DNA of 64,000 nt from Lampris incognitus. Its lineage: Eukaryota; Chordata; Actinopteri; Lampriformes; Lampridae. Below the pieces are notes generated by a model. That model saw only the letters and a program-made list of their open reading frames with translations, searched no databases and was not told where the DNA came from. Every line of letters starts with the position of its first letter. Position 1 is the first letter of the stretch. The position numbers and the translations under genes were made by a program. The stretch lies in contig NC_079213.1 in the NCBI RefSeq assembly GCF_029633865.1, positions 98,249,845 to 98,313,844 on the forward strand, in the 5' to 3' direction. Positions 11,465-63,772 of this stretch are shown piece by piece.

Positions 11465-12578
11465 TTGATTCATAAGAAAGTATGAATCACATATGGGCCA
11501 AACGTTTTTGACCATGCGCTCTTTATCCTCATGATCAGGAGTGTCGTATACGTAAGAACTTCTCCTCTCTGCGAGCCATTGTGTCAGCGCTACAGTCCAA
11601 CCCTCTCTATAGACTGAAAAGGGCATGGGCCTGCGTGCACAAGTAAGTTGTTTTTTTTTACATCAAAAACATGCAGATACTTGTGGTAGGTCTTAACAAA
11701 GTCTTTTGGTAGGTTTTGGAAGGATCACTTGGACATCTCGTTTTCACTTTTTCCTCATCATCAGTTTCCAGTGTCTAATCATATCTGTGATTGATGCAGA
11801 GATAGCATGCAGACGTTTGAGGAGCTGTCGGACATCTTCTCAGACCACAACAACTACCTGACCAGCAGAGAGCTGCTCATGAGGGTGAGCTCTAACTCTG
11901 TGACCTCACTGTAATATTTCACACCTTATCCTTATTTCACATGAATATGGGTGTACTCCCCCCAGACATAGTATCATTTCAGTGTTATAAAGCCATTTAA
12001 GTATCATAAAATGTTATAGACGGTATAAGTTATGCGCGTGTTTCCGCTGTTCAGTCTACAAGTCCAGTCCGGCCCTCCAATTAAAATCCAGTTCAATCTT
12101 CCAGTCTTGTGATTTAATGCATCATCTCCACAGGTGTGGTTGTTAAATTACTGGAAAGATTCATTCATTGATGGGTTATAGTGGCGGGGACCAACATTGG
12201 TGTTTGTTTCCTCTGTAGGAGGGCACTTCAAAGTTTGCCAGTCTGGAGAGTTGTGCCAAAGAGCACCAGAAACGTACCCACAAAAGACTACAGCTGCAGA
12301 AGGAGATGGTAAGACAAAAGCTGGTTTAACAAGATTGCTTAAAAACAAGGTGGCGCAGTGGTTGGCACGGTCACCTCAGCAAGAAAGTCCTGGGTTTGAG
12401 CCCCGGGGTAGTCCAACCTTGGGGGGCGTCCCGGGTCATCCTCTTTTTGGAGTTTGCATGTTCTCCCCGTGTCTGCGTGGGTTTCTTCCGGGTGCTCCAG
12501 ATTCCTCCCACAGTCCAAAGACCTGCAGGTCAGGTGTATTGGCCGTTCTAAACTGTCCCTAGGTGTGAATGTGTGTGT

Positions 12579-12625
<47 letters not shown>

Positions 12626-13366
12626 CCCTGCGTGATGGCCTGGCCGCCTGTCCAGGGTGTCTCCCCACCTGCCACCCAATGACTGCTGGGATAGGCTCCA
12701 GCATCCCCGTGACCCTGAGAGCAGGATAAGCAGTTTGGATAATGAATGGATGGATGGCTGCTTGAAAACGGGTCCATCTCAATAAAATTTATATTTTCAT
12801 GGAACTCATTCATCCGCAGTAATGTACTGTCAAGTGAGATGCAGCATCTTTGCCAAAAAAGGCACATTTTTGATGTAAGCCTATGCTTAGCTGTGTATAC
12901 ACAACACGCTATGTGCTCATGTTAAGATCGCACTGTGAATGCTTGGATTGTGCCAAGCTTGCTTTGCCATCTGTACATCATGACAACCACAAAAGGAAAA
13001 AAGTCTCACACTTAGTTGTAGAATAATTTATGTTTTCATTGATGCCTTTTTTTCCAAGTAGTCAAATAATCTATATCAACTTGTCTTTCTCCACAGGGAG
13101 CCATGCAAGGGACAATACCATACCTGGGGACCTTCCTAACAGACCTGACGATGCTAGATACAGCCTTACCTGACCTGGTGGAGGTAAAAATCTCAATTTG
13201 ACACCTACTGAATAAAGTGTGTGTGTGTGGGGGGGGGGGATGCACATGCCAGTGCATACACATGTATGTGTGTTAATGCATGTTTTTCTGACTGAGGGCC
13301 CATCTCTACAAATTTGCGGGACGCCATTAACCTCTAGTAATCGTCAGAAACTGGAGCACAACCTTC

Positions 13367-18462: not shown

Positions 18463-19426
18463 TTATTACTTGGATCTTTGTCTCTCTCTCTTTTTTTAAT
18501 ATATTTTAAGACCAAAGTTGCCATTGCTGACTATAAACTGGATGTTGCACTCGGTATGAGTTGGGCGGGATCATCTTTAACTAAAAGTACATGTCTATTG
18601 CCACGTTTCTTCTGCTTGTTATGCTGCTAAAGTTGGCTGTCTTGTTTTCTGCAGACTTGATGGCACTGCTCTTACAGATTCATCTGGACTCGTGCGAAGG
18701 ACTATAACTCAATTTGCTCTACATTCATTTTCCTCTGAATGGATTCGAGATGAAGGACATTGGAGTTTTTTCTTTTTTTTTTTTTTCTTATGCAGTCTGA
18801 ACATTTGTTCCTTTAGAGACTCAAGTTGTGGGTCCTTCAGCGAACTAAGAGTTATTGTGGACGGAACCCAAGTCATTTTGCTGAGTGGAAGACATTTTTG
18901 CTGACTCGAATGCAGCAGTCATGACCTCCCTTTCCTGTAGTCGGGCTTGCTGCGGTGGTCAAACCCATTTCCAACATTACTCAGACAAACATGCATTTGG
19001 GGGTTTTGCAAGCTTTTCTTTCAAATCCTAAAATGGACGTCTTTTACAGGACACCACATAGAAAGAGAGAGATGTGGGAATTGGGGAAATATTTAAACTA
19101 CTACAAGTATTAAAGGTGCAATCTAAAGTCATATTTTTTTACTGATAGGATGTATAGATGTTGCAGGGGAAGTTGCTGTTATCATACACACACGTGTTTA
19201 AAAGTCACCATGCTCTCAGCAGACACATATAAATCAAATAACCGTTGATAAGAGACCTTTTTGTCAGCTCTTAACACAAAATCTGAAAGGGACCCCTCAA
19301 ACACCACGTTTTTATGGCAGCAATCCTACCAATAATTCCCACAAGGATATAAATTCATCTTCTGTATCAAAAACCCAGCAAACATGCAGAAATAACATAT
19401 ATTTGAGTTCTGAAATGTACCTGTAG
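18463..19426. other. rgl1-abhd17a spacer, nothing recognised
   Basis: No exon or clear repeat. It is a moderately AT-rich spacer between the convergent genes, just before the nested transposon cluster. Confidence 0.5.
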
Positions 19427-19564
19427 ATAGGGCTGCGCGGCTACGGCTGCAAATATTAATCGCGATTATTTTTGCTGGATATTGTGATAACGATTATATA
19501 CCACGATTATTCACTCATTTTAGATGAGAGAATTGTTAAAATCGACAGAAAACTGCCTTAATAT

Positions 19565-19937
19565 TGTAAACTACTAATAAGACACATTAGCCCCTATCTA
19601 ATGGGTCTGACCCTTTAGCCGAGCGGTTAGTGATGTTGCCTTGTGGTGCAGTACACTCATATCGAATCCCGCACTGGGCAAGAAAACAACCGGTTACATT
19701 GGTGGCAGCGGTGGGATCCGGAAGTGTGCAGATCCTCAGAAGTCTCTTCGGAGCGCGGGAATAACAAAGCACGAGGGCGCGCTTCCGGGGAGGGTGACGA
19801 CTGTAAACTAGTAATAACACACATTAGTCCCTAGCTAACAAGTCTGACCCTTTAGCCGAGTGGTTAGTGACGTCGCCTTGTGGTGCTAGTAAATCCTGTA
19901 TCGAACCCCGCACCGGGCAAGAAAATAACCGGTTACA
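19565..19937 (+). mobile_element. TRIM-like miniature LTR retrotransposon with tRNA-like LTRs
   Basis: Direct repeats 19565-19698 (134 bp) and 19802-19937 (136 bp) both start TGTAAACTA and end CCGGTTACA, and are about 85% identical by eye. One base after the first repeat lies TGGTGGCAGCGGTGGGAT (19700-19717), the exact complement of the 3' end I recall for a vertebrate tRNA-Leu including CCA. That is the position of a primer binding site. Just before the second repeat is GGGGAGGGTGA (19787-19797), a plausible polypurine tract. The 103-bp interior codes for nothing. Each repeat contains TAGCCGAGCGGTTAGTGA or close, then ATCGAATCCC or ATCGAACCCC, resembling Pol III A and B boxes. The flanks ATAT/ATAA give no exact target-site duplication. 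Alternative reading: two tandem tRNA-derived SINE monomers. Confidence 0.6.
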
Positions 19938-20087
19938 ATAATTATAATATAGTCTATAAATAAACAAACATTCACATGTACCGTTTTCCAGATCAAAATA
20001 CTTCCTTTGCACCAGAGCTTTTATCGCCCCTGGCCACTATCAGTTGTGGAAGCCAATGTTGACGTCACGATAACTTTACCGGTGATT

Positions 20088-20766
20088 GGGCGTCCGGGTA
20101 GCGTAGCGGTCTATTTCGTTGCCTACCAACATGGGGATCGCCGGTTCAAATCCCAGCGTTACCTCCGGCTTGGTCGGACTTTGCGCATAGTCCACTGACT
20201 TCCGGTTTCTACGGCAGCGGGCATAGCAGTTTCCTGTCCTCATAAATGTGGACGTAGCTTGATATGTACAACTTGAAACTTTTCACCCGTTTGCTGGTAG
20301 GTGCAGGAGAAAGTTTGTTGTGCATGTCGTTTACATTTATCCATGGGAAATCTTGCAGGCATCGCGAAAAACATGCCATTGCCAATAGCACGCGCCAACA
20401 AACAGGAAACTGGTATGGCCGCTGCAGTAGAAACCGGAAGTCAGTGGACGACAGTTACGTACAGAGTGGGTGGGAAGCCGGATATGAGCGTGTGTCCTGG
20501 TCGCTGCACTAGCGCCTCCTCTGGTCGCTCGGGGCGCCTGTTCGGGGGGGAGGGGGAACTGGGGGGAATAGCGTGATCCTCCCACGCGCTACGTTCCCCT
20601 GGTGAAACTCCTCACTGTCAGGTAAAAAGAAGCGGCTGGCGACTCCACATGTATCGGAGGAGGCATGTGGTAGTCTGCAGCCCTCCCCTGATCGGCAGAG
20701 GGGGTGGAGCAGCGACCGAGACGGCTCAGAAGATGGGTACAATTGGGGAGAAAAAAAGGGGGGGTT
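20088..20766 (+). mobile_element. tRNA-derived SINE (GGCGTCCGGGTAGCG family), interrupted
   Basis: The head GGCGTCCGGGTAGCGTAGCG and B-box-like GGTTCAAATCCC start the element. The body resumes at about 20460 with TGGGTGGGAAGCCGGATATG, then TCCTGGTCGCTGCACTAGCG, GAAGCGGCTGGCGACTCC, TGTATCGGAGGAGGCATG and a GGGGAGAAAAAAAGGGGGG tail. Five other copies in this window lack the roughly 280-bp interruption. The gap corresponds to the foldback at 20190-20449. Confidence 0.8.
20190..20449. mobile_element. foldback element with 48-bp inverted arms inside a SINE
   Basis: Left arm 20190-20237 and right arm 20402-20449 are inverted repeats matching at 45 of 48 positions; the outer end reads GTCCACTGACTTCCGG. 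The ~164-bp centre has no coding potential. No target-site duplication is obvious, so the insertion mechanism is open. It must be younger than the SINE it splits. Confidence 0.65.
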
Positions 20767-22742: not shown

Positions 22743-23170
22743 AACAGAACGGGGGCGACTGGGTAGCGTAGCGGTCTATTCCTTTGCCTTCCAACACGGG
22801 GATCGTCGGTTCGAATCCCCGTTTTACCTCCGGCTTGGTTGGGGGCCCCCACAGACGCGATTGGCTGTGTCCGCGGATGGCAAGCCGGATGTGGGTATGT
22901 GTCCTGGTCGCTACACTAGCGCCTCCTCTGGTCGGTTGGGGCACCTGTTCGGGGAGGGGGCAGCATGACCGTGCCACGCCCCCCCCCCGGAGAAACTCCT
23001 CACTGTCAGGTGAAAAGAAGCGGCTGGCGACTCCACATGTATCGGAGGAGGCGTGTGGTAGTCTGCAGCCCTCCCCGGATCGTTAAAGGGGGTGGAGCAG
23101 CGACCGGGGCGGCTCAGAAGAGTGGGGTAATTGGACGGGTACAACTGTAGAAGAAAAAGGGGGTGGGTGG
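22743..23170 (+). mobile_element. tRNA-derived SINE (GGCGTCCGGGTAGCG family)
   Basis: GGGTAGCGTAGCGGTCTATT and GGTTCGAATCCC give the A- and B-box-like head. The body has CTCCTCTGGTCGGTTGGGGC, GAAGCGGCTGGCGACTCC and TGTATCGGAGGAGGCGTG, ending in an A/G-rich tail. Flanks AAATCAACAGA and AAATCAATAGA (10/11) look like a target-site duplication. Confidence 0.85.
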
Positions 23171-26100: not shown

Positions 26101-26789
26101 TTCTGTTCCCCCATTGAGCCATTTCAATGCCAACACTGGGCTGCGCTGTGCTGTTGGGACGACCAAACACAACATGAAAATTCAAATGAAAGCAGGAGGG
26201 AACCAGCAGTGGGTTGTAATGGGTTTTAGCTGCATTCCCATTTTGGACTATGTCCATACTAACATGGAGAAATTTGAAAACGCTGTTTTCATGTCAAAAA
26301 TGGGTCGAGTTTCCCCCCTCTAGTGTTTTCAGATTGCTTTAAAAAAAAAAACAAAAAAAAATTCGCCACCCACACCGAAACCCCCAAAATGCTCGAAAAA
26401 TGCTCAGTCTCTTCTATTGAGCATGTGCAAGCCGCTTGACCGCACAGCGTTACGCTGATCACGACGATCCCATGTTTTTTGACAAGCTCCATTTTTGCCA
26501 TCCACACCACAACACAAAACCGATGTTTTCAAACGTACCCATTTTGGAGAACGTTTTGAAAGATACATCTTAGGCAGCTGAAAAAGGCCTGCTTAGTGTG
26601 GAAGACAGAAATGGAGAAAAGCAAAAAGCAGCGTTTTCAAATTCATCTGCTTCGTTATGGACGTGGCATTAGAAACCAGTTAATCCAGCCCCAGACGGCA
26701 GCAGGAGGGCTTCATCTGAACCACAGAGGGGTAGCCGGGGTGGGCCACGAGACTGAGGTGATGGCGATGACAGTAAAAAGGTGTGATGG
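23171..26789 (-). other. abhd17a: possible abhd17a 3' UTR and spacer
   Basis: Unique-looking sequence downstream of the abhd17a stop. The first polyadenylation-type signals I find on the minus strand are ATTAAA near 23756 and AATAAA at 23223-23228, which would imply an unusually long 3' UTR containing the SINE at 24968-25380. A shorter transcript using a non-canonical signal is equally possible. No additional exon was recognised. Confidence 0.3.
24968..25380 (+). mobile_element. tRNA-derived SINE (GGCGTCCGGGTAGCG family), diverged copy
   Basis: The head GGGCGCCCGGGTGGCGTGGC and B-box-like AGTTCGAATCCCC, then GTCCTGGTCACTGCACTAGC, GAAGTGGCTGGCGACTCC and TGTATCGGAGGAGGCATG. It lacks about 25 bp found in the other copies around the GGGGCACCTGTTCGGG section, so it is more degraded. 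It is antisense to abhd17a. Confidence 0.8.
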
Positions 26790-39619: not shown

Positions 39620-42600
39620 TCATAACTTCTGGATTTTCTCAGCCACCACGATGGGGTTCTCCTTGCGTAAGCGGGCGGCAGCGGCACCCCGGTAGTCGTA
39701 GGGACAGTCGTGTTTGTCAGAGTAACGGTGGATGCCGCAGAACAGGTTACCGCAGCGACAGTCAAAACCTTCAGTGAGTAGAGGAGGGACACAGTCAGTC
39801 AATGACAGTGAACATCATCAGAGTAAATCCCACAAAATCAGAATTGAAATAACAGACCGAACACATTGAATTAAGAATGTGCGTGTGAGATGTTAGAGGA
39901 AGGCAAGGAGGAAGGCTCCCGGGGAGTATTTTTGGACAGGCTAGTTTGGCACTGGAGTGCAAGCCAGCAGAGCACTGTGAAATGCCTTGGACCGTGAAAT
40001 GCACCACCAGTCTGCTATGTAGCGCTCTAGTCTACACTGAAGTGGCAGGTGGTGGGGGACTATAATAACACTAACCATGGATTTAGGAATGAGGATTTTG
40101 CACACATTAGTTAGAGGCACAAGATGAGATAAATAATATGGGTGGTGTGGTCAAATTAAGTATTTGGTACGAGGACACTAACGAGCAGTAATAACTATTT
40201 TCTGTTTTACTGACACCTCAATGCATTTTGCTACTGGTACTTGCTAAGCTACTGTTGAGGGGAGACCTAATAGATATGATGCTGAGATCTATTCATCTTC
40301 ATCCTGTTAATGAGATGTCTCTCCTGTTTGAAGCAATGCTTGCCCCTGACCCCTGAATGGAAGATTTCAACATGCTCTGAATTCACAAATGTTAAAGTTT
40401 GGTTTAAACCGTGAAGCCCAGCGCTGATTTACCCACATTACACAAACAGAAACAATTTGCTCTCCTGAATTTCAAATTTAAGGTTCCATTTCAGGGAGGA
40501 GTAATATGGTTGTTGCAAAGCAGCACCATAAACCTTTGTACCCTAACAACAGCTTACAGTTTACCAATCTGTGAGCATGTGTGTGTGTGCATGCGGCTCG
40601 TGCCTGTGCTGAAATCCTTCTCCTCCTTACCAGTGAGGCCAACTTTCTTCCGGCAGGTGAAGCAGCGATTTTTTTTCTTGTTTTTATCAGGGGTCTGCTC
40701 ACCGTCAGAAGCCTGTGCTGCTTCTCCCGTTGGCCCTGGTGCAACAAAATACAAGCAGGAAGGATCAGCTGAGAGTAGTTTAGGCCTTTACTTGTTACAA
40801 AGGAAATCACAGCACCTTTTTGTGAAGGGAAAAAAAGAGTGGTTTTAATTCTAACAGGTGAAAGAAAGAAAGAAAGACAGACAGACAGACAGACGCTCAA
40901 TACTGCTAGGTTAAAAAAAAAAAAAACCCAAAACAATAAAAGGTGCAAAATACGAAAGAGGTAAGATTTTTTTTCCCCGACCAAGGAGAGAGGTAAAGTG
41001 CTTGCTACTAAAAAAAAGTCTCTCTTTTTAAGAGAAGGGTAGGCAGTTTACTCACCTGTGTTATTTTTATTCTGTATTTAGACATCGAGTAGAGTGAGGG
41101 ATAGAGTAGGGGAGACCCAGGAAAGTGACTTCTGGTGGAATTCTATCCAAGACCAGTTTGTATATACATGTAGCTCCAGGGGCAGTAGACCAAACTGCCG
41201 CATTATCTCTGAGCTCAAAAGATAACTTTAGAGTCATGCGATGGTGGAGATGGTGTCAAGTGTTTGAGGTGCTGTGTGTGTTCTCTCCCTGTGGTTTGTC
41301 AAGCCATCTCTCTCTCTGGGGACATCAAGTTGGTCTGTTTTCCATGGCCTTTACCTGTGTTTTTGGATGTTCCCTCCTCCTCCTCCTCTTCTGCTTCAGC
41401 TCGATCAGAGTCCACAGCACCCACATCTTGGGAGATGCTCATGGCCGTCATCTGCTGGGTTACCGGGCTGGGAGAGCTAGGACTGAAAACACAGAAATGT
41501 CAGTTAAAAAAGGGTAAATAAAACAATCTGATATCCACAAGACAGCTGACCACTTTCTGGACAGTTCTGGGAGAATAACCTCAGAGATTGGGGCAGTATG
41601 AATTTGGAGTGCAACATTTGTGCACAAAATTGGTAGAACTTTTCCTACTAGAGGACATGCAAGTTCATAAGTGTTCAATTTTTCCCATACTTTGCATTCC
41701 TGAAATTCACTGGCTGTGAAAACACTAGACCACTCTATTATTTTGTAGAAGACAATTTTGCACAAGTCTACTTATTCAGTTGTGGAATCTAGCATTTTGA
41801 GCTGTATTATAATGAGGTGTTTGCCTAAAAAAAGCACTTCAAAAGCTACATGATCTCCTGTGATTACATGATGCAGGAGGAGGCATCCGATCACTTTAGA
41901 TTACAACTGTTAGGTCCAAGCACAATACTAACAAACCATAATAATAGCACGTCATGACATTAATAAATTCTCAACAACTATGTGCAGCACATTATTAACA
42001 AAAATGGCACACAATAATTTGCAGTTGCCATCTTGCCAAATAGGATTCAAGATGGCGCCGACCGATGACGACAACACTACGAGCTTCTCTCTCCCTTGTA
42101 TTAGTTTTTGCATTAATTGTTTACTTTCTCGCACATACTACATCAACAATGATCATTTATGACCGTCAGACCTTACTGGACTTAAGGCTAAATGTTCCAG
42201 ACCTGTGCACATATCCAGAGATACCAAAACACATCGTTTACAACCCTACAGTACCTTGGAGCACCAGCAACCGATGCCAATACAGGCAGAAACACGGAAG
42301 ACAAGGCAGGGTCCTGGCTAGGCTAAGGTGTCACCTGACTCAACTTTCCATCCCTAGCATTTTGCTAGCCAATGTACAATCTGTTGTCAGCAAGCTAGAT
42401 GAATGCCACTGCCGTATTAGCGCCCAGCAGGACATGATGGATTGCTGCATGTTCTGTTTTACTGAGACCTGGCTGACCTCGAACATCCCGGACAGGGCCA
42501 TACAGCCTGACGGCTTCTCCGTGCACCAACTCGACCCCTTGTGTGAAACAACTGGCAAGGTAAAAGGTGGGGGAGTATGATTTCTGGTTAACAACTTGTG

Positions 42601-45600
42601 GTGCACCGATGTGGAAGTAATCTCCCAGTCCTGTTCGCCGGTGTTGGTGCATCTTACAATCAAGTGTTGACCATTTTATCTACCAAGAGAATTCCCCTCC
42701 GTTCTGTTAACTGTTATTTACATTCCACCACAAGCAAATACTACAGTAGTTCTTGAAGAGCTCTATGGTGCAATCAGCGGCTATGAGAATCAGCATCCAC
42801 AGGCTATTTCCATTGTGGCAGCGGACTTCAATCACTGCATCCTAAAATTGATGCTACCTAAATACTTCCAGCATGTCAGATGTCCAACCAGGGGTGACAG
42901 GATCTTGGATCACTGTTACCCCACTATCAAGGGAGCCTACAGGTCTATTCCACGGCCTCATTTTGGGAAATCGGACCATTCATCTGCGCTCTTGCTACCT
43001 GTTTACAAGCAACACGTTAAGAGCGAGAAACCCACCTTGAGGGCAATACAGTACTAGTCGGCGGAAAATGAGCTCAAACTTCAGGGTTGTTTTGATTCAA
43101 CAGACTGGTAGGTTTTTAGGAACTCTGAACCCAAAATGAATACGCTGATACCGTTACTATGTTAAATTCTGTTAAATTCTGTGTGGACACCTGTATTCCA
43201 ACTTGTTCCATCCACTTCTATCCAAATTAGAAACCTTGGATTAATAGCGACATTCCACTGAGACTGAAAGAAAGGACTGTCGCTTTTAAAGCTGAGGATA
43301 AGGACCGCTACAGGGAAGCCAGGTACACGCTGAAGAAAGCCATCAAGTCAGCCAAAAAACAATACCAAGATAAATTAGAAGCAGCATTACAGCGGTGAAG
43401 ACTCCAGGCGCATGTGGCAGGGGCTGCAAACGATAATGGACTACAAACCCAAGCCGGGCGGTTTTACCAACACTACCACTTCGCTCCTGGATGACTTGAA
43501 CAGGTTCTATGCTCGCTTTGATTGTAACTGGGGACGATCAGACAATACACAGAACCTTGGTGGGCACTCACTCAACGAGGTAACACATCAAATGACAGAG
43601 GCTGACGTGAGTAAGGTTTTTAAATCTGTCAAAGCATGCAAAGCTGTTGGCCCATACGGTATCCCATCTCGTGTCCTTAAGACCTTACTATAGTTAGCTA
43701 CTGAATGTTTTTACAGACATTTGTAATCTGTCATTGTCACTATGTGTGTTCCTATATGCTTTTTATTGTGCCTGTACAAAAAAAAAAAAAACAACCCTGT
43801 AACCCGTCTCAAGGACTACAGACCTGTTGCTCTGACCTCAGTAATTATGAAATGCTTTGGAAAATTAGTTAGGACATACATAAATCTCAACATTCCTGCC
43901 AACCTTGATCCACTACAGTTTGCTTATCAGTCAAATAAATCTGTGGAAGATGCTGTGTCATTGGCTCTGCATACTGTGTTAAAAAACACCTTGAAGGGAA
44001 AAAACACCCATGTCAGGATGTTGTTTACTGACCACAGCTCTGCATTTAATACCGTTGTACCATCTAAATTGGTGTTAAAGCTTAGGGACCTTGGCCTATG
44101 TAATTCAATCTGTAAGTGCTTATATGACTTTCTGACAGCCAGACCTCAGACAGTGAGAGCAGGTACCAGCTACTCATCTACCATAGTTCTCAACACAAGA
44201 ACACTGCAGGGTTGCTGCCTTAGTTCCTTACTCTACAGTTTGTTCACACATGAATGTGTTGCCAAATATCATAACAGCATAGTGAAATTTGCAGATGACA
44301 CCACTGTAATTGGACCAATAAATGACAACAATGGAGATGCCTATAGGAAGGAGGTGAAGGACCTATCCATACAGTGTCAAGATAACTTTGCCCTAAACAT
44401 GGAAGAAAGAATCTGTTTGCTGCATTTAACCCATCCGCTGTGGTGCCAGGTATATGAGTACTGGGTAGCTACAGTGTCCGGGGACCAACTCCAGTCCTTC
44501 TTTCCACTGCCTCAGTCAGAGGCACAGGCAGGAGTATAAACCCTAACATGCTTGTCTTTTTGATGGTGGGATGAGACCAGAGCACCCGGAGGAAACCCAC
44601 GCAGACACAGGGAGAACAGGCAAACTCCACACAGAAAGGTCCTGGGATGGCCTGGGGTTCGAACCCAGAACCTTCTTGCTGCGAGGCAACAGTGCCAACC
44701 ACTGGGCCACCGTGCTGCTTTGAGAAAACAAAAGGAGATAATTGTTGATTTTAGGAAGTCCAAAACTGTTCAGACACCAGTTTACATCAATCATGTCCCT
44801 GTTGAAATTATGAAGAACTTCAGATTTTTAGGCATTCGGATCTCAGACTCTCTCTTCTGGTCTCTAAAGTTATCATTAAGAAGGCACAACAGACACTATA
44901 CTTTCTGAGATGTCTTAAAAATTCAGAATGTCCACAAAAACCTTGGTCAATTTCTATCAGACTACCGAAGACAGCAACCTTACTGGAGGCATACTGGTGT
45001 GGTTTGGCAACCTGACTGAACAGGACTACAAACAACTGAGAAGGATAATAAAAACCGCTTCAAAAATCATAGGAACAGCACTGCCTCAGCTTCAGGACGT
45101 TTACACCACCCGCTGCAGAAGGAAGGCCCCACGAATCATGAAGGGCACCAGCCACCTAATACATGGTCTGTTCTCACTCGTTCCCTCAAGACAATGCTTA
45201 CAGAGCATCAGAGCTCAGACCAGCCGCCTCAAAGACATCAGAGTAAGGAAAAATAGGCGCCTTACATAACTTCAGTGATTTATTATTTTCTGGGATTTCT
45301 AATTTCTTATTTATTGTTTTTATTTCCTTATATATAGTTCTAAGGGCTGAAAAAGCCAGGGCACATGCATTTCATTGCATTTGAAGGCACATGGTACTTT
45401 TTATATGTATATAATAAAGTAATACTTGAACTTTGGTGACAGGATGGTCTGGTGGTCCATGGCATCAGACCCTAACCGGAGGACCCCAACACAATGACCC
45501 TGTGGCCAAACATGTCAAAGTACCCTTAAGCAAGATCATTGAACCCTACCTCTCCCAAACGGCACAAGACCATCTGGCTGCCCCTAACCCAAATATCACA

Positions 45601-48844: not shown

Positions 48845-49150
48845 TTAAGCATGCTCAATAATCCAGGTAATAAAATCGAAGAAAGAAAGTTGAATCGGTT
48901 CATTTGGACACAACCATTTATTGAGAGAAACGTTTCATCGCTCACCTAAATGACTTCTTCGGTCTCAACTGACCTATAGGTATAAACTGATCGTTTTCGG
49001 TCGTTATGCCACTGTATCTAAATTGGGTATCTAAATAAGGGTGGGGATACCTGCAGTCAGTTGAGACTGAAGAAGTCACTTAGATGAGTGATGAAACGTT
49101 TCTCTCAATAAACATTGTGTCCGGATGAACTGATTCAACTTTCATTCTTT
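48845..49150. mobile_element. ~300-bp foldback MITE between plin3 and zfand5
   Basis: Arms of about 90-95 bp at 48881-48973 and 49056-49150 are inverted repeats. Both contain TTTATTGAGAGAAACGTTTC and its complement, and GACTTCTTCNGTCTCAACTG. The ~80-bp centre is not palindromic. The outer left edge GCATGCTCAATAATCCAGG resembles the mini-foldback at 2170-2260. The family is one I recognise as widespread in fish but cannot name. Confidence 0.7.
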
Positions 49151-49363: not shown

Positions 49364-52300
49364 TTATTTCTGTGGGTCAGCCATCTGCATTGGCTGGTCT
49401 TCTTTTTCTTTCTCAGTGATCTGTGGGGCAAAGGGCCCAACCAGCCAGTTGAGTGGAGTGTTGTTCAGAAGATACTCCATGACACCATCCAGAGACTGCT
49501 GCACCTGTAAAGAGGAAGATTATTTTCAACACAACTGCATGGTCATGACCATTGTCGACTTCACAACATGTGCCTAACTCAAAATCCTATGCTACCATGG
49601 GGGAGTTCAAAATGTAAATATTCTGTGTGTACGTAACAAAATGTAAGGAAAGAATTCCATAAGTTGGTGTAGCTGAGATTCGTAGAATGCATGTCAATGG
49701 GAAAATATTCCAGATAATACATTATATAGTCACTTTGTATGCTTTTTCAACATGTAGGATCTATGTAATGCTTCTTAAGTACCCATTAAATTGAGCTGCA
49801 CTGAATTGAACTGAACTGAATTAATGTGTTGGGTGTACATGTATAGTGTAGATTATATTTCTTTTATAATAGTCAAACCAAGTCAGGTTTATTTTAGTTA
49901 GCCCTAAATCCCAGTTTAGTTTCAAGAACTTAACAATCACAATAACATTCTGTACAAAGTACAACACCCCCTATTCTTAGGCCCTTAATTTTGGTGAAGA
50001 AAAACTCCACAGAAACAAACAAACAAAACTTGATAGTAAATAACTTTGGTTGCATTATTAAACTACCAAGAAAAAAGGATGAGGCAGGGGCTAGGTTACT
50101 GTTTGGATGCAGCTGTGCAACAAGAAACAATAAAAAGCTTGAACTGCCTTCAGCTAAAATGATGCTCTGATAATGACAGCTGATGAAATTAGTACTTGTG
50201 TTAGGTGGTGACGGCTCTGCTCCAGGAGGAGAGGAGTGAGGTTGCTGGTATTCCCTAGGGAGTAGTGAAGTTCTTCAGCCGATCGCCGTGCGCTGGCCAG
50301 CTGGTCCTGGACCATACTTGGTAGACCCTGGGCACTGGTCACCACACCAGAGCACGCTGACCGCAGTTGGTCACTAAGACCTCGGACCATGGATAGAGCC
50401 TGCCATTCCAGGCGCTGTGAGCAGATGAAAATGAAAGAAAAATATGCATGAGTGATAGATTTTTTAAAAAAATACTGACTTGGTATTTCATAGTTCCATG
50501 TTCAGATCTTGTTCCCTGACAGAGACTGTTCCATGCCATAAATTTCTCCATCTTTTCAAGGGGCATTCTAAGTCCCCTTGGATTCCTGTCACTGTTACAG
50601 TCTGTTTAACCTAATATTTATGTCTAGTTATACATGGCTTTGAACACTGTGAAATGAAGTTCAGGTTTCTGATTTGTAATTATTACATGGATGTCCTGGG
50701 TGACAGCCCTGACCTCACGCTCATCTGTAGCAACATCCAGCTCTGCTTCCATCTGCCCATCTCCAGACTGTCTTTCCTTCCACTCTTTCCAGTGTTGGAG
50801 CAGTTTTTCTGGGGCTCCTCCAATCTGATTACCAGCGGTACCCAGAGTGGTGCGGGCACTCTCCAGCAGATCCAGAGTATTGGTGATCTGTGCAATTGAA
50901 GAATAGGTGGTGTCCCTGGCATGCCGAGCTCTAAGCAGTGACTGTTCCAGGGCTCGCTCCTGGACCTTGGCAGAGAGTTTCCCCAGACGGACGAAGTAAC
51001 TGGGGCTGGACTGTGTGGCAGTCAACTCACTCGCATTGGGCTCAGCGAGTGCAGCTGAAAGAGGAGAAGAATCACTTATTTTAGGCTAAGGGAGAGTCAC
51101 AATATATTTTCTGTGGAATAGGAATTTTTATTCCATCATGGGGTTTATTAAAGAAGGTTTTTCTTTTTCAGATTTCATCATAAATATACATATGTACAAA
51201 GATAATGCTCTGAATAACCCATCTTCGACAGTTCTGCGTTATAGCTGTGCTTTACTGATCACTATGTCCAATCTTGGTGAGAGGGGAACCAGTTAGTTAT
51301 CTTTCTTGCTTAGTCCTAGTCTTTCTTATTATGTATGTGACCTAGTTTGGAGAAAACTTTTCAGTACACTTTTATTGATAACAGTTTTATAAATTAATAC
51401 ATACGCGTTTTGTGCTCACTATTTACACCAATCACAGCAACAAAAAACAAACAAACAAAAAAACCCCAGCCCACTCAGGTATTAATGCTACCACGAAGTA
51501 TAGCAGGTCAATGGGGTAATATGACATCACAGTAACAGGTGTCAAAGCGGCGAGTGCTGGAGATCGGAGTGGGTTTATGGGCCAAGTTAACAGTTGGTCA
51601 CTGGAATGCTCCAGCCCCTTCAGCTATGAATAACCACCAGTCATGAGCTCAATACCAATCACTATAGAATTAAACATGAAGACCACAGCACCTCATCACC
51701 TTGACCTGCCTTTATGAAGATGAAGCATTACTTAAAAAGCTAATGTATTCAGACAGTTGTGGGGTACAACAATTCTGAATCAAAATAGTAATGAGGCAAA
51801 CATCCACCGTCAGCAAGGAGGTCTCACAATAAGTGTGCTTTGACATGAAAGTATATTTGAGAGATAGCAAGTCCTTAATATCTGAGGATTAATTAATTTG
51901 GAGTGTAACAGAACAAATTGCAGAAAACTGCAATTTGTCCAAGAGATTTTAACATCGAACCAAATAAATTGCAACAGTCAAACCGTCCTAGTAATACCTC
52001 AGGGTAACATGTATTATTTCATAGCTTTAATGGAAACGTGAGGGAAACATAAACCTCTTCACCATCACCTTTGCTAGACCTGAACACATCAACCAAAAGA
52101 TGCTCTTAATTTGTGTTACAACAGTGGTAAGAGTTCAAAACAGGGCGTCCGGGTAACGTAGTGGTCTATTCCGTTGCCTACCAACACGGGGTTCGCAGGT
52201 TCGAATCCTCATTTTACCTCCGGCTTGGTTGGGCGTCCCTACAGACACAATTGGCCGTGTCTGTGGGTGGGAAACCGGATGTAGTTATGTGTCCTGGTCG

Positions 52301-54785
52301 CTGCACTAGCGCCTCCTCTGGTTGGTTGGGATACCTGTTTGGAGGGGAGGGGAGGGGGAACTGGGGGCAATAGCATGATCCTCCCACGCAACACGTCCCC
52401 CTGGCAAAACTCCTCACTGTCAGGTGAAAAGAAGCGGCTGACAACTCCACGTGTATCGGAGGAGGCATGTGGTAGTCTGCAGCCCTCCCCGGATCGGCAG
52501 AGGGGGTGGAGCAGCGAATGGGACAGCTTGGAAGAGTATGGTAATTGGCCGGATACAATTGGGGAGAAAATGGGGGGGGGGGTCAAAACACTGATGCAGG
52601 GAGCCAGGTATTTGTTAACCATCACCTTCATTTCAATCAAACAGCTGAGACATACTACTTCATATCTCAATGCTCCACATTTAGGTTACCAATCCCTTGT
52701 TGCCTTTAAACCGTTTGTTCTTTTCACAATTAGGACCCAGCTACTGACCCAGCTCCCTCTCGCTGAGTGGTAGGTTCTGTTCAACCCAGTCCTCAGACCG
52801 GCTGAGGGCCAGGCCCATCCCACTGCTGACCATCTGCCCCATGCGGGTTCCCAGGACTGAACTGATGCCTCCGCTGACTGCAGCCCGGGTCAGATCGACA
52901 CCACCCTTCACAGCTCCCATCACAGCTCCAGTCATGGCATCTTTGGCTCCTGCCACTGACTGATACACCATGCCCACTGTGTCTGACACCAACTAAAGAA
53001 AGACAGAAAGCTGATGTGCCATGCTCGAAAAATAAATAGGCAGTATCGTTTTGCTTTTTTGTACTTGAGATTAGGGCTGTGTATTGGCGAGAATCTAGCA
53101 ATACCATACATATCACGATACAGGGGTTACGATTCAATATATCCCGATATACTGCGATACGAAAGGCGATATATTGTGATTTTATAGGCCTGTGTTCTTT
53201 GAGATTATGCTACTTCCTGTCTCAGTTTATATTGTTGCATTGGTTGGAGTGGAAGAGTCAAATGGCTGAAGATAGATGACAACACTGTTATCTAGCGGTC
53301 GTGGGGTTACACACAACACAAAATATTTGTCATGAACCTTTACATGTAAACAATTAAAAACCGATATGGTGGTTTTGAGAATCGATACAGTATCACAAAA
53401 GATAATATCACGATACTCGAGCGTATCGATATTTTCTTACACCCCTACTCGAGATAAGTTTGTTGGGTTTTTTTGCATTACCAATACCATGACAACTGAG
53501 ACAACTGATTGTATGAAGCCCAAGTGAATACAGGGAACAAGTGATTTCATCCTTTCAACAAGGGTTTACTATGTAATTAGAACTTCAAAATTAAAAAAAA
53601 AAGTACAATATACAATTAATGAACAACCCAAATACACAATTCGCAATAAAACATGTAAAACAAACATAGCATTAAACACACTTTTATAAGTTTAGAGACA
53701 TCTTCCAAGACACTGTATATGATTAACTCTGTCTGACCTTGTCTGCTGGCTGATGAAGGATGGTCAGCTTCTCTTCCATCTTGTCAAGTCCCATCATAGC
53801 ATAGTCATTTATTGTGGCAACTGAAAGTAGGCACAGTGGGGGGGGGGATAAATGCTGTAAAGAATTAGAAACAGAACTACAACACCCAAATCCCTTCTAG
53901 TTTTTATTGGATCCACACAAAAATAAGTTGACATTCTAAAACTATAAGAATGAGCCAGAATTTTAATTCAGCTAAGAGGCAAAATTGTTGATGTTATTGG
54001 TGAGAATCTTCCAACAACTGTATCAGAAGATATCGGATGATAGACATCCATATCTAGACTGGGAATAGAATGACCTTTTTAGGGATACAACACTTTATTA
54101 TTAAAAAGGCCTCTTAAGATTAAAATGACTTTAATTGTGTGACTGAAAGAAATCCAATTTCTTCTTTCAGTTATGTTGTATTTCAGGGGTGTTGAAGCTA
54201 ATAAAAGGAATGCTCACATCCCATTTTCGCATCTGTGCTGTGATGTATTCTTGCGCAATTTGCCAAGTGTAGATAATGCCAATAAAGATATTGCATTTTT
54301 TCATTATTTCAAAAATCTTTGGCAGTGAGTAGGACCTACTCTGTGGCTCCAGCATATCCAAAAGAGGTTTGGACCCCGTGGTGGCAGCTGCCCCTAATGT
54401 TCGAACCCCACTCTCTGCAACATCCATCACTCCCTTCAGCAAGGGCACATTGTCCTTCGTGCTGCTGTAGGCACCGGACACCACCTCACAAGCTGAGCTG
54501 ACCAAGGGCAGGTTGCTTACTCTGGACACAACACTCTAAGAAGAGTCAAACAATATTGTTAGGGACCTGAAAACTAGGTACACTTTTCTCATGATTGATT
54601 TTCTGTTTTCTGCGAGGCATTGGTGATTGATTCCCTACACCAACTCCTGAAGGTCACACCAGTTTGTGTTATGGTAGTGTTTCATAACAGGCGTCAGCTG
54701 TGGCCATGGCGCTCACCTGCTGATCTGCATTAGCCTGTTGGGCTGCTGCCACGTCAGTCTCATTAGTCTTCTCACTGTCTGCCAT
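49364..54785 (-). CDS. plin3: Perilipin, most likely PLIN3 (7 coding exons)
   Basis: Perilipins coat lipid droplets and control lipase access; PLIN3 exchanges between cytosol and nascent droplets. Coding exons in transcript order: 54785-54717, 54535-54340, 53820-53738, 52992-52749, 51054-50714, 50414-50196, 49504-49364. All GT-AG, phases join, 430 aa (human PLIN3 434). The PAT domain spans about 24-116 ([45 protein letters not shown]). Amphipathic 11-mer-type repeats run about 117-185 ([18 protein letters not shown]). [15 protein letters not shown] starts the C-terminal helical bundle, which ends with [18 protein letters not shown] at about 399-416. [19 protein letters not shown] and FAPQITEK favour PLIN3; NLPLVSS and [12 protein letters not shown] are also PLIN2-like, so PLIN2 is the main alternative. 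An acceptor 21 bp before the ATG (exon edge 54806) implies a non-coding first exon further upstream, not located. Confidence 0.9.
49870..50015. repeat. fish CAAGTCAAGTTT-type interspersed repeat, plin3 intron
   Basis: AACCAAGTCAGGTTTATTTT, then ACACCCCCTATTCTTAGGCC and GGTGAAGAAAAACTCCACAG, in the same order as the copy at 6570-6720. It lies in the last plin3 intron. Confidence 0.55.
52143..52582 (+). mobile_element. tRNA-derived SINE (GGCGTCCGGGTAGCG family), plin3 intron 4
   Basis: GGGCGTCCGGGTAACGTAGT, B box GGTTCGAATCC, the shared body and a GGGGAGAAAATGGGGGGGGG tail. A perfect 8-bp repeat TCAAAACA flanks it at 52135-52142 and 52583-52590. It is antisense to plin3, between coding exons 4 and 5. 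Confidence 0.88.
53071..53446. mobile_element. hAT-type MITE (GATACGATA-rich), plin3 intron 3
   Basis: Begins TTAGGGCTGTGTATTGGCGA and ends CGTATCGATATTTTCTTACACCCCT, with repeated ATATCACGATA motifs inside. An 8-bp duplication ACTTGAGA (53063-53070) and ACTCGAGA (53447-53454), 7 of 8 identical, suits a hAT insertion. I recognise this as a common teleost MITE. Confidence 0.72.
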
Positions 54786-62875: not shown

Positions 62876-63327
62876 GGGTTTTTTTTCTCCCTTTTTCTCC
62901 CCAGTTGTATCGGGCCAATTACCCCACTCTTCCGAGCCATCCCGGTCGGTGCTCCACCCCCTCTGGCCTCTGCTGATCCAGGGAGGGCCTCAGACTACCA
63001 CAAGCCTCCTCCGATACATGTGGAGTCGCCAGCTGCTTCTTTTCACCTGACAGTGAGGAGCTTCATCAGGGGGACGTAGCACGTGGGAGGGTCACGCTAC
63101 CCCCCCCCAGTTCTCCTGCCCCCCCCAAACAGGCACCCCGACCAGAGGAGGCGCTAATGCAGCAACCAGGACACATACCCACATCCGGCTTCCCACCCGC
63201 AGACACGGCCAATTGTGTCAGTAGTGATGCACCACCAAGCCGGAGGTAACACGGGGATTCGAACCAGCGATCCTCGTGTTGGTAGGCAATGGAATAGACC
63301 ACCATACCACCCGGACGCCTAACACTG
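62876..63327 (-). mobile_element. tRNA-derived SINE (GGCGTCCGGGTAGCG family), minus strand
   Basis: The only minus-strand copy of this family here. The head GGCGTCCGGGTGGTATGGTG is at 63320-63301 and the B box GGTTCGAATCCC near 63260. The tail of T/C at 62879-62903 is the complement of the usual A/G tail. Flanks CATCAATGTGATG (62863-62875) and CATCAATGTAATG (63328-63340) agree at 12 of 13. Confidence 0.88.
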
Positions 63328-63404: not shown

Positions 63405-63772
63405 TGCTATCCATCCATCCATCCATCCATCCATCCACCCATCCATTATCCGAACCACCTATCCTGCTCTCAGGGTCGCGGGGATGCTGGAGCCTATCCT
63501 AGCAGTCACTGGGCGGCAGGTGGGGAGACACCCTGGACAGCCCACCAGGCCATCACACAGAGCTGACACACACACTCATTCACACCTAGGGACAATTTAG
63601 TATGGCTGATTCACCTGACCTACATGTCTTTGGACTGTGGGAGGAAACCGGAGCACCCGGAGGAAACCTACGCAGACACGGGGACAACATGCAAACTCCC
63701 CACAGAGGACGACCCGGGATGACCCCCAAGGCGACCACAATAACCACTGCGCCACCGTGCCGCCCCTGATAG
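63405..63772 (-). mobile_element. tRNA-derived SINE, ATGG-tailed family, near full length
   Basis: Begins with (ATCC)n on the + strand (the tail) and contains GGGGATGCTGGAGCCTATCC, GGAGGAAACCGGAGCACCCG and CCACTGCGCCACCGTGCCGC, the complement of the A-box head. It is the same family as 12347-12758 but lacks a long internal GT array. Confidence 0.82.

Follow-up and report, generated by a model that had tools for sequence, protein, structure and literature searches.

A multi-copy TRIM family, very probably of the Helenus type, in the genome of the fish Lampris incognitus

Helenus elements are TRIMs which carry a tRNA-like promoter, with boxes A and B, in their LTRs, together with a primer binding site (PBS) and a polypurine tract (PPT) (Kojima 2024, PMC10886601). 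They are 311-1263 bp in length and are found in fungi, animals, and a lycophyte, with zebrafish and other fishes among their hosts (PMC10886601). Those of vertebrates use tRNA-His, tRNA-Leu, or tRNA-Lys as primers, and those of animals make 4-bp target-site duplications; in zebrafish, 5575 LTRs and 2618 interiors are counted for the family LTR-11_DR, which also forms tandem arrays (PMC10886601). Cassandra is the only validated case of a TRIM with a pol III promoter (PMC10886601). Among the papers on such elements that were surveyed by title and opening of the abstract, tRNA-containing TRIMs are described only in PMC10886601.

In this study, we found that the analysed window, a stretch of 64,000 nucleotides of L. 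incognitus DNA, contains one such element, and we take it with high confidence to be a copy of a multi-copy, gene-less TRIM family of the Helenus type, the LTRs of which carry a putative tRNA-derived pol III promoter. Because Helenus is defined by LTRs that carry a pol III promoter resembling a tRNA, the family is placed there, and the tRNA boxes in the LTRs, the tRNA-Leu primer, and the 4-bp duplication of Helenus are all found in it. Fish Helenus, LTR-11_DR included, and the window family both have boxes in the LTRs, a PBS, a PPT or, in the window family, a candidate for one, tRNA-Leu among the primers, 4-bp duplications, solo LTRs, arrays, a length within 311-1263 bp, and fish hosts, a likeness to LTR-11_DR as it is described in print. 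The LTRs of the window family are tRNA-His-like, whereas PMC10886601 shows fish Helenus against tRNA-Val-CAC. Throughout the window family the purine run lies 7 bases from the LTR, and a PPT usually abuts it. Cassandra is likewise gene-less with a pol III promoter in its LTRs, but this promoter is derived from 5S rRNA, and Cassandra elements are 565-860 bp long and live in plants (PMC10886601). Ajax, a nemertean TRIM, resembles the window family in combining a small-RNA promoter with a tRNA-Leu PBS, but it too has a 5S rRNA-derived promoter, with a length of 421-434 bp and 5-bp duplications (PMC10886601).

The element occupies positions 19565-19937 (373 bp) of the plus strand, on which all its features lie. 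Its 5' LTR (19565-19698, 134 bp, TGTAA...TTACA) and its 3' LTR (19802-19937, 136 bp) agree at 118 of 133 aligned bases, with 4 further gap columns (K2P 0.124), or at 86.0% over 136 columns by BLAST, in agreement with a first-pass annotation of this DNA, which had reported two TG...CA direct repeats of these lengths with about 85% identity. Both LTRs start with TGTAAAC and finish with GGTTACA, and the likeness of the flanks ceases past these points. Among ORFs that begin with ATG and overlap the element, none exceeds 43 aa on the plus strand or 55 aa on the minus strand, and no mobilisation protein is encoded. With TG...CA LTRs and a length within the limit for TRIMs (<1000 bp), the window copy has the size of a TRIM, and the family measures 369-377 bp across 30 loci. 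The left flank that adjoins the element (19429-19564) has the look of a hAT-type terminal sequence, and the sole inverted repeat reported in 19200-20300 is a short palindrome within this flank (19452-19473). Near-palindromes are also present elsewhere in the window, at 48879-49149 (271 bp, 77% self-complementarity) and 2204-2262 (59 bp, 93%).

The PBS, TGGTGGCAGCGGTGGGAT (19700-19717), starts one base past the 5' LTR and is an exact complement of the CCA-tailed 3' end of tRNA-Leu. It is the sole match in the 64 kb at up to 3 mismatches, where 0.05 matches are expected from 100 shuffles, and it is exact in 21 of the 26 copies that could be parsed. Read in reverse complement, it agrees at every base with the human tRF-Leu-AAG 18-mer printed in PMC9161985, and a tRNA-Leu 3'-end 18-mer matching the PBS is also listed in the appendix of PMC12025293; the first-pass annotation, which had called an intact tRNA-Leu PBS one base after the first repeat, is thereby confirmed against a printed tRNA-Leu 3' end. 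A paper on an Echinococcus TRIM also prints a similar 12-mer, and the terms tRNA-Leu and RNA polymerase III were not found in the passages of its main text. At the other end of the interior, the purine tract GGGGAGGG (19787-19794) is kept in 22 of the 26 copies, but it is parted from the 3' LTR by a spacer of 7 bases, TGACGAC (19795-19801). The annotated purine run is present, albeit not just before the second repeat as had been stated. Since the same spacer is present in 24 of the 26 copies, the gap between tract and LTR is not a matter of decay. Priming of the second strand would then take place deeper inside the element than the position of the purine run implies, or else the ends would be trimmed.

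Searching the 1,481,484,146 bases (537 contigs) of the host genome gave at least 41 near-full-length matches of 92-100% identity, with the window copy at 100% and the rest at 92-94%; this number is a lower bound because 40 of 3766 first-look candidates were scored. The 30 loci which were fetched are the best scoring of these 3766 candidates and not a random sample, and all counts on interiors cover the 26 loci which a script could split into their parts, the sought ends being altered in the other four. Exact 4-bp target-site duplications flank the element at 21 of the 30 loci. When the compared positions were slid by 1-3 bases, a 4-bp match was seen at 1, 0, 0, 0, 0, and 0 of the 30 loci for the six positions, and a 5-bp duplication was seen at none of the 30. 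Three of the loci (L028-L030, on contig C6) are identical in the element and in the near flanks and so count once, which brings the 4-bp duplications to 19 of 28; they may represent a recent segmental repeat.

The layout of 31 loci was compared, and 28 of them consist of two LTRs and one interior only. One of the others, L031, contains a tandem LTR-I-LTR-I-LTR array (1054-1666), and L021 contains a like array (1504-2102) in which the second interior match is shorter. L026 has an additional lone LTR, with the LTR ends and with CTCA on both sides as a 4-bp duplication, and this is the one solo LTR seen in the fetched loci, to which the search for solo LTRs was confined. The duplications, the solo LTR, and the arrays are traces left by an LTR retrotransposon family. 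As to empty sites, the two flanks of each of the 30 loci were joined, and no sequence spanning such a junction was seen within these loci or in the window. No relatives were found by exact patterns in viral and prokaryotic contigs or by blastn in phages and plasmids, collections which are uninformative on fishes. The first-pass annotation had proposed to look for many two-repeat copies, for solo repeats, and for duplications of 4-6 bp, and all three were found, the last at 4 bp. It had also named, as evidence against its reading, copies that are tandem monomers devoid of a PBS/PPT interior; instead, all 26 parsed copies have an interior of 102-104 bp. Its identification of the element as a miniature LTR retrotransposon is therefore upheld by the LTRs, the exact PBS, the genome copies, the 4-bp duplications, and the solo LTR. 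Its further suggestion of a vertebrate TRIM needs the amendment that such TRIMs have already been described from fishes (PMC10886601), and the movement by means of a partner's proteins that it proposed is an inference.

What the first-pass annotation overlooked is a tRNA-like part in both LTRs, so that a SINE-like, tRNA-derived segment does exist there. The 5' LTR contains an A-box-like TAGCCGAGCGG (19616-19626) that fits 9 of 9 constrained positions and, 43 bases from its start, a B-box-like ATATCGAATCC (19659-19669) that fits 6 of 9. In the 3' LTR, the A-box-like TAGCCGAGTGG (19853-19863) again fits 9 of 9, and the B-box-like GTATCGAACCC (19898-19908), 45 bases from the A-box start, fits 7 of 9. 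Thus the A box, TAGCCGAGYGG, is perfect in both LTRs of the window, and the B box is weaker. Box pairs equally good or better arose in 142 (5' LTR) and 12 (3' LTR) of 200,000 Markov sequences of the same make-up. The window as a whole contains 8 such pairs, as compared to a simulated mean of 1.0; two of them belong to the LTRs of the element, and the remaining six fall inside two repeat families or no more than about 20 bases from them. A ninth pair, at 26121 with a spacing of 62, appears only under a wider limit and lies outside those two repeat families. One of these families is represented by a tRNA-headed SINE at 20088-20739, with related copies near 22753, 24970, 52143, and 55318 and a reversed copy at 62889-63325. 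The SINE at 20088-20739 appears to be split by a MITE-like insert with 48-bp terminal inverted repeats (20190-20237 and 20402-20449, 94% complementary). Copies of the second family (12351-12760, 44553-44709, and 63428-63754) are accompanied by strong A and B boxes of the tRNA type, which lie either inside them or next to them.

The tRNA of which the LTR head is reminiscent was sought among 13 tRNAs. For the two window LTRs the best was tRNA-His-GTG, with scores of 17 and 14 followed by 12 and 12 for the next best, and against tRNA-His alone these scores were matched by 1 and 18 of 20,000 shuffles. The tRNA-His-GTG sequence agrees with the human one printed in PMC12217144. The assignment is made firmer by 52 LTRs of the family, which share descent and over which the mean score was 17.3 for tRNA-His, 10.1 for tRNA-Ser, and 8.5 for tRNA-Val, the three tRNAs compared. 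A score of this size against tRNA-His is not peculiar to the LTRs, as a tile of a perilipin exon in the window scores 18, above the window LTR (17). This exon belongs to a perilipin-family gene on the minus strand, with exons at 50154-54535 and three ORFs matching PF03036. Taken together, it is likely from these alignments that tRNA-His is the source of the LTR head.

That the LTRs carry an A and a B box is, judged from sequence, well supported, and it is on these boxes that the reading of the element as an ordinary pol II-transcribed TRIM, with the tRNA-like part as a mere passenger, has to be weighed. An A box followed 43-47 bases on by a B box is present in 45 of the 52 LTRs (from 28 distinct copies), a spacing proper to tRNA genes and, as noted above, rare in matched random sequence. 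The B box, however, is imperfect in every one of these 45, with 7 of 9 positions in 39 and 6 of 9 in 6, which speaks for the passenger. So does the failure of two programs to call a tRNA: ARAGORN called none in the 64-kb window or in any of the 30 loci, and Rfam, at E values up to 10, found none in the two window LTRs and one other, with only chance-level hits to snR10 and mir-9461. Rfam likewise misses the neighbouring tRNA-headed SINE. Against the passenger, the boxes are slightly better kept than the U3 and the sequence that separates A box from B box (mean identity 0.976-0.993 versus 0.963-0.971, a small difference), and the same layout recurs in published families (PMC10886601). Considering both sides, we regard transcription by pol II with a passenger tRNA-like part as improbable.

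The presence of the tRNA-like part in the LTRs speaks for the possibility that the repeats are a tandem pair of tRNA-derived SINE copies with a PBS and a PPT between them by chance, as does the fact that tRNA-headed SINEs are common in the window, with one beginning about 150 bp away, and that three successive repeats are seen at two loci. The tRNA-derived SINEs at 20088, 22753, and 55318 share tRNA-type A and B boxes with the window family but have no LTR pair, PBS, or PPT. SINEs of this kind are mobilised by LINEs. A chance origin of the PBS and PPT would not account for an exact 18-base PBS in the window copy, nor for the same 102-104 bp interior in all 26 parsed copies with an exact PBS in 21 of them, nor for 4-bp duplications at most loci, and the lone repeat ends as an LTR does, is flanked by a 4-bp duplication, and shows no SINE-type A-rich tail. 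As far as the examined copies go, tandem SINE duplication, which the first-pass annotation had already judged a poor explanation of the layout, is refuted and hardly deserves any credence. It is just as implausible that the element is the remnant of a larger autonomous LTR element which shed its coding sequence here and nowhere else. The very short interior recommends this idea, but it is refuted by the other copies, since matches of similar length occur at no fewer than 40 further places and short duplications flank most of those fetched.

The window copy itself is without a clean target-site duplication, its flanks, ATAT and ATAA, agreeing at 3 of 4 positions, for which the chance is about 9%. 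The divergence between its LTRs (0.124) is the highest of 26 measured, the others ranging from 0.023 to 0.078. Compared site by site with the commonest base among the other copies, it is different at 1 of 103 positions in the interior and at 20 of 270 in the LTRs. From this pattern, the window copy may be a product of recombination between copies, which fits better than plain age. Because diverged LTRs, a fresh interior, and a mismatched duplication fit a chimera, dating by LTR divergence is unsafe for this copy.

It is reasonable to outline how a Helenus-type element of this structure would replicate. Transcription by pol III would start just upstream of the A box of the 5' LTR, at about 19600-19610, and would read across the PBS, the interior, the purine tract, and the 3' LTR until it met a terminator in the flanking DNA, yielding an RNA with repeated ends. 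About 40 bp would be left as U3, and the tRNA-like part would correspond to R/U5. TTTT is absent from the window copy (the first is at 19984) and from 26 of the 30 copies, an absence that is permissive only, as it is shared by 73 of the 637 tiles of the window and by 9,518 of 20,000 shuffles. The RNA would then enter particles of a Gypsy-type partner, reverse transcription would be primed by tRNA-Leu, and second-strand synthesis and integration would be carried out by the proteins of the partner, with an integrase stagger of 4 bp. A partner of the Gypsy type is proposed because of the 4-bp duplication and of published PBS comparisons (PMC10886601). Pfam analysis of 10 of the 59 window ORFs of at least 110 aa found one reverse transcriptase and no Gypsy match. 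Broken ORFs at 42044-45269, with a reverse transcriptase domain (PF00078) at 43727-44539, are probably a decayed LINE.

The interior between the PBS and the purine tract was inspected for structure and for conserved sequence. A possible 12-bp stem (19718-19729 with 19777-19788) could close the stretch 19718-19788, for which the evidence is weak: in a 78-base stretch picked after the stem had been seen, 5 of 200 shuffles fold equally well (z -2.07), and its reverse strand is nearly as stable (17 of 200, z -1.53). Folding was unremarkable against shuffles for the whole interior (64 of 200, z -0.35), for the presumed transcript (57 of 100, z 0.33), and for the tRNA-like parts of the LTRs (z -0.51 and 0.95). 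A packaging signal in the interior is not claimed, as the folds of the reverse strand, the whole interior, and the transcript do not stand out. A 13-mer, AGTCTCTTCGGAG (19741-19753), recurs in every one of the 26 parsed interiors; as the copies share descent, this shows no more than conservation. It appears to equal the variable arm of tRNA-Leu-TAG in the sense orientation, and so to come from the same tRNA group as the primer; a 13-base match to tRNA-Leu-TAG was reached in 39 of 20,000 shuffles.

As to its origin, the window element is possibly a copy of an already listed Helenus family. Alternatively, and in our view with a rather low probability, its family would be an uncatalogued fish Helenus with an origin of its own. 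In that event, a tRNA-His-like head would have been captured into the LTRs of a TRIM primed by tRNA-Leu, the interior would have been stripped to the PBS, a short structured stretch, and the purine tract, and the sense 13-mer from the variable arm of the primer could serve in the recruitment of the primer or of the particle. If so, the fixed 7-base spacer would point to an unusual mode of second-strand priming or of end trimming.

In summary, the element at 19565-19937 is a real mobile element and not one of a new sort, and it very probably belongs to Helenus. SINE-style transcription is joined to LTR-style replication in TRIMs that have a pol III promoter, a hybrid that was named recently. 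A vertebrate family that has 4-bp duplications, a solo LTR, and arrays, and in which the boxes are conserved, lends itself well to testing the idea of such a hybrid. For the annotation of genomes, the family provides a caution that direct repeats with tRNA boxes are not necessarily SINEs. The features that a minimal LTR parasite retains can likewise be read from it.
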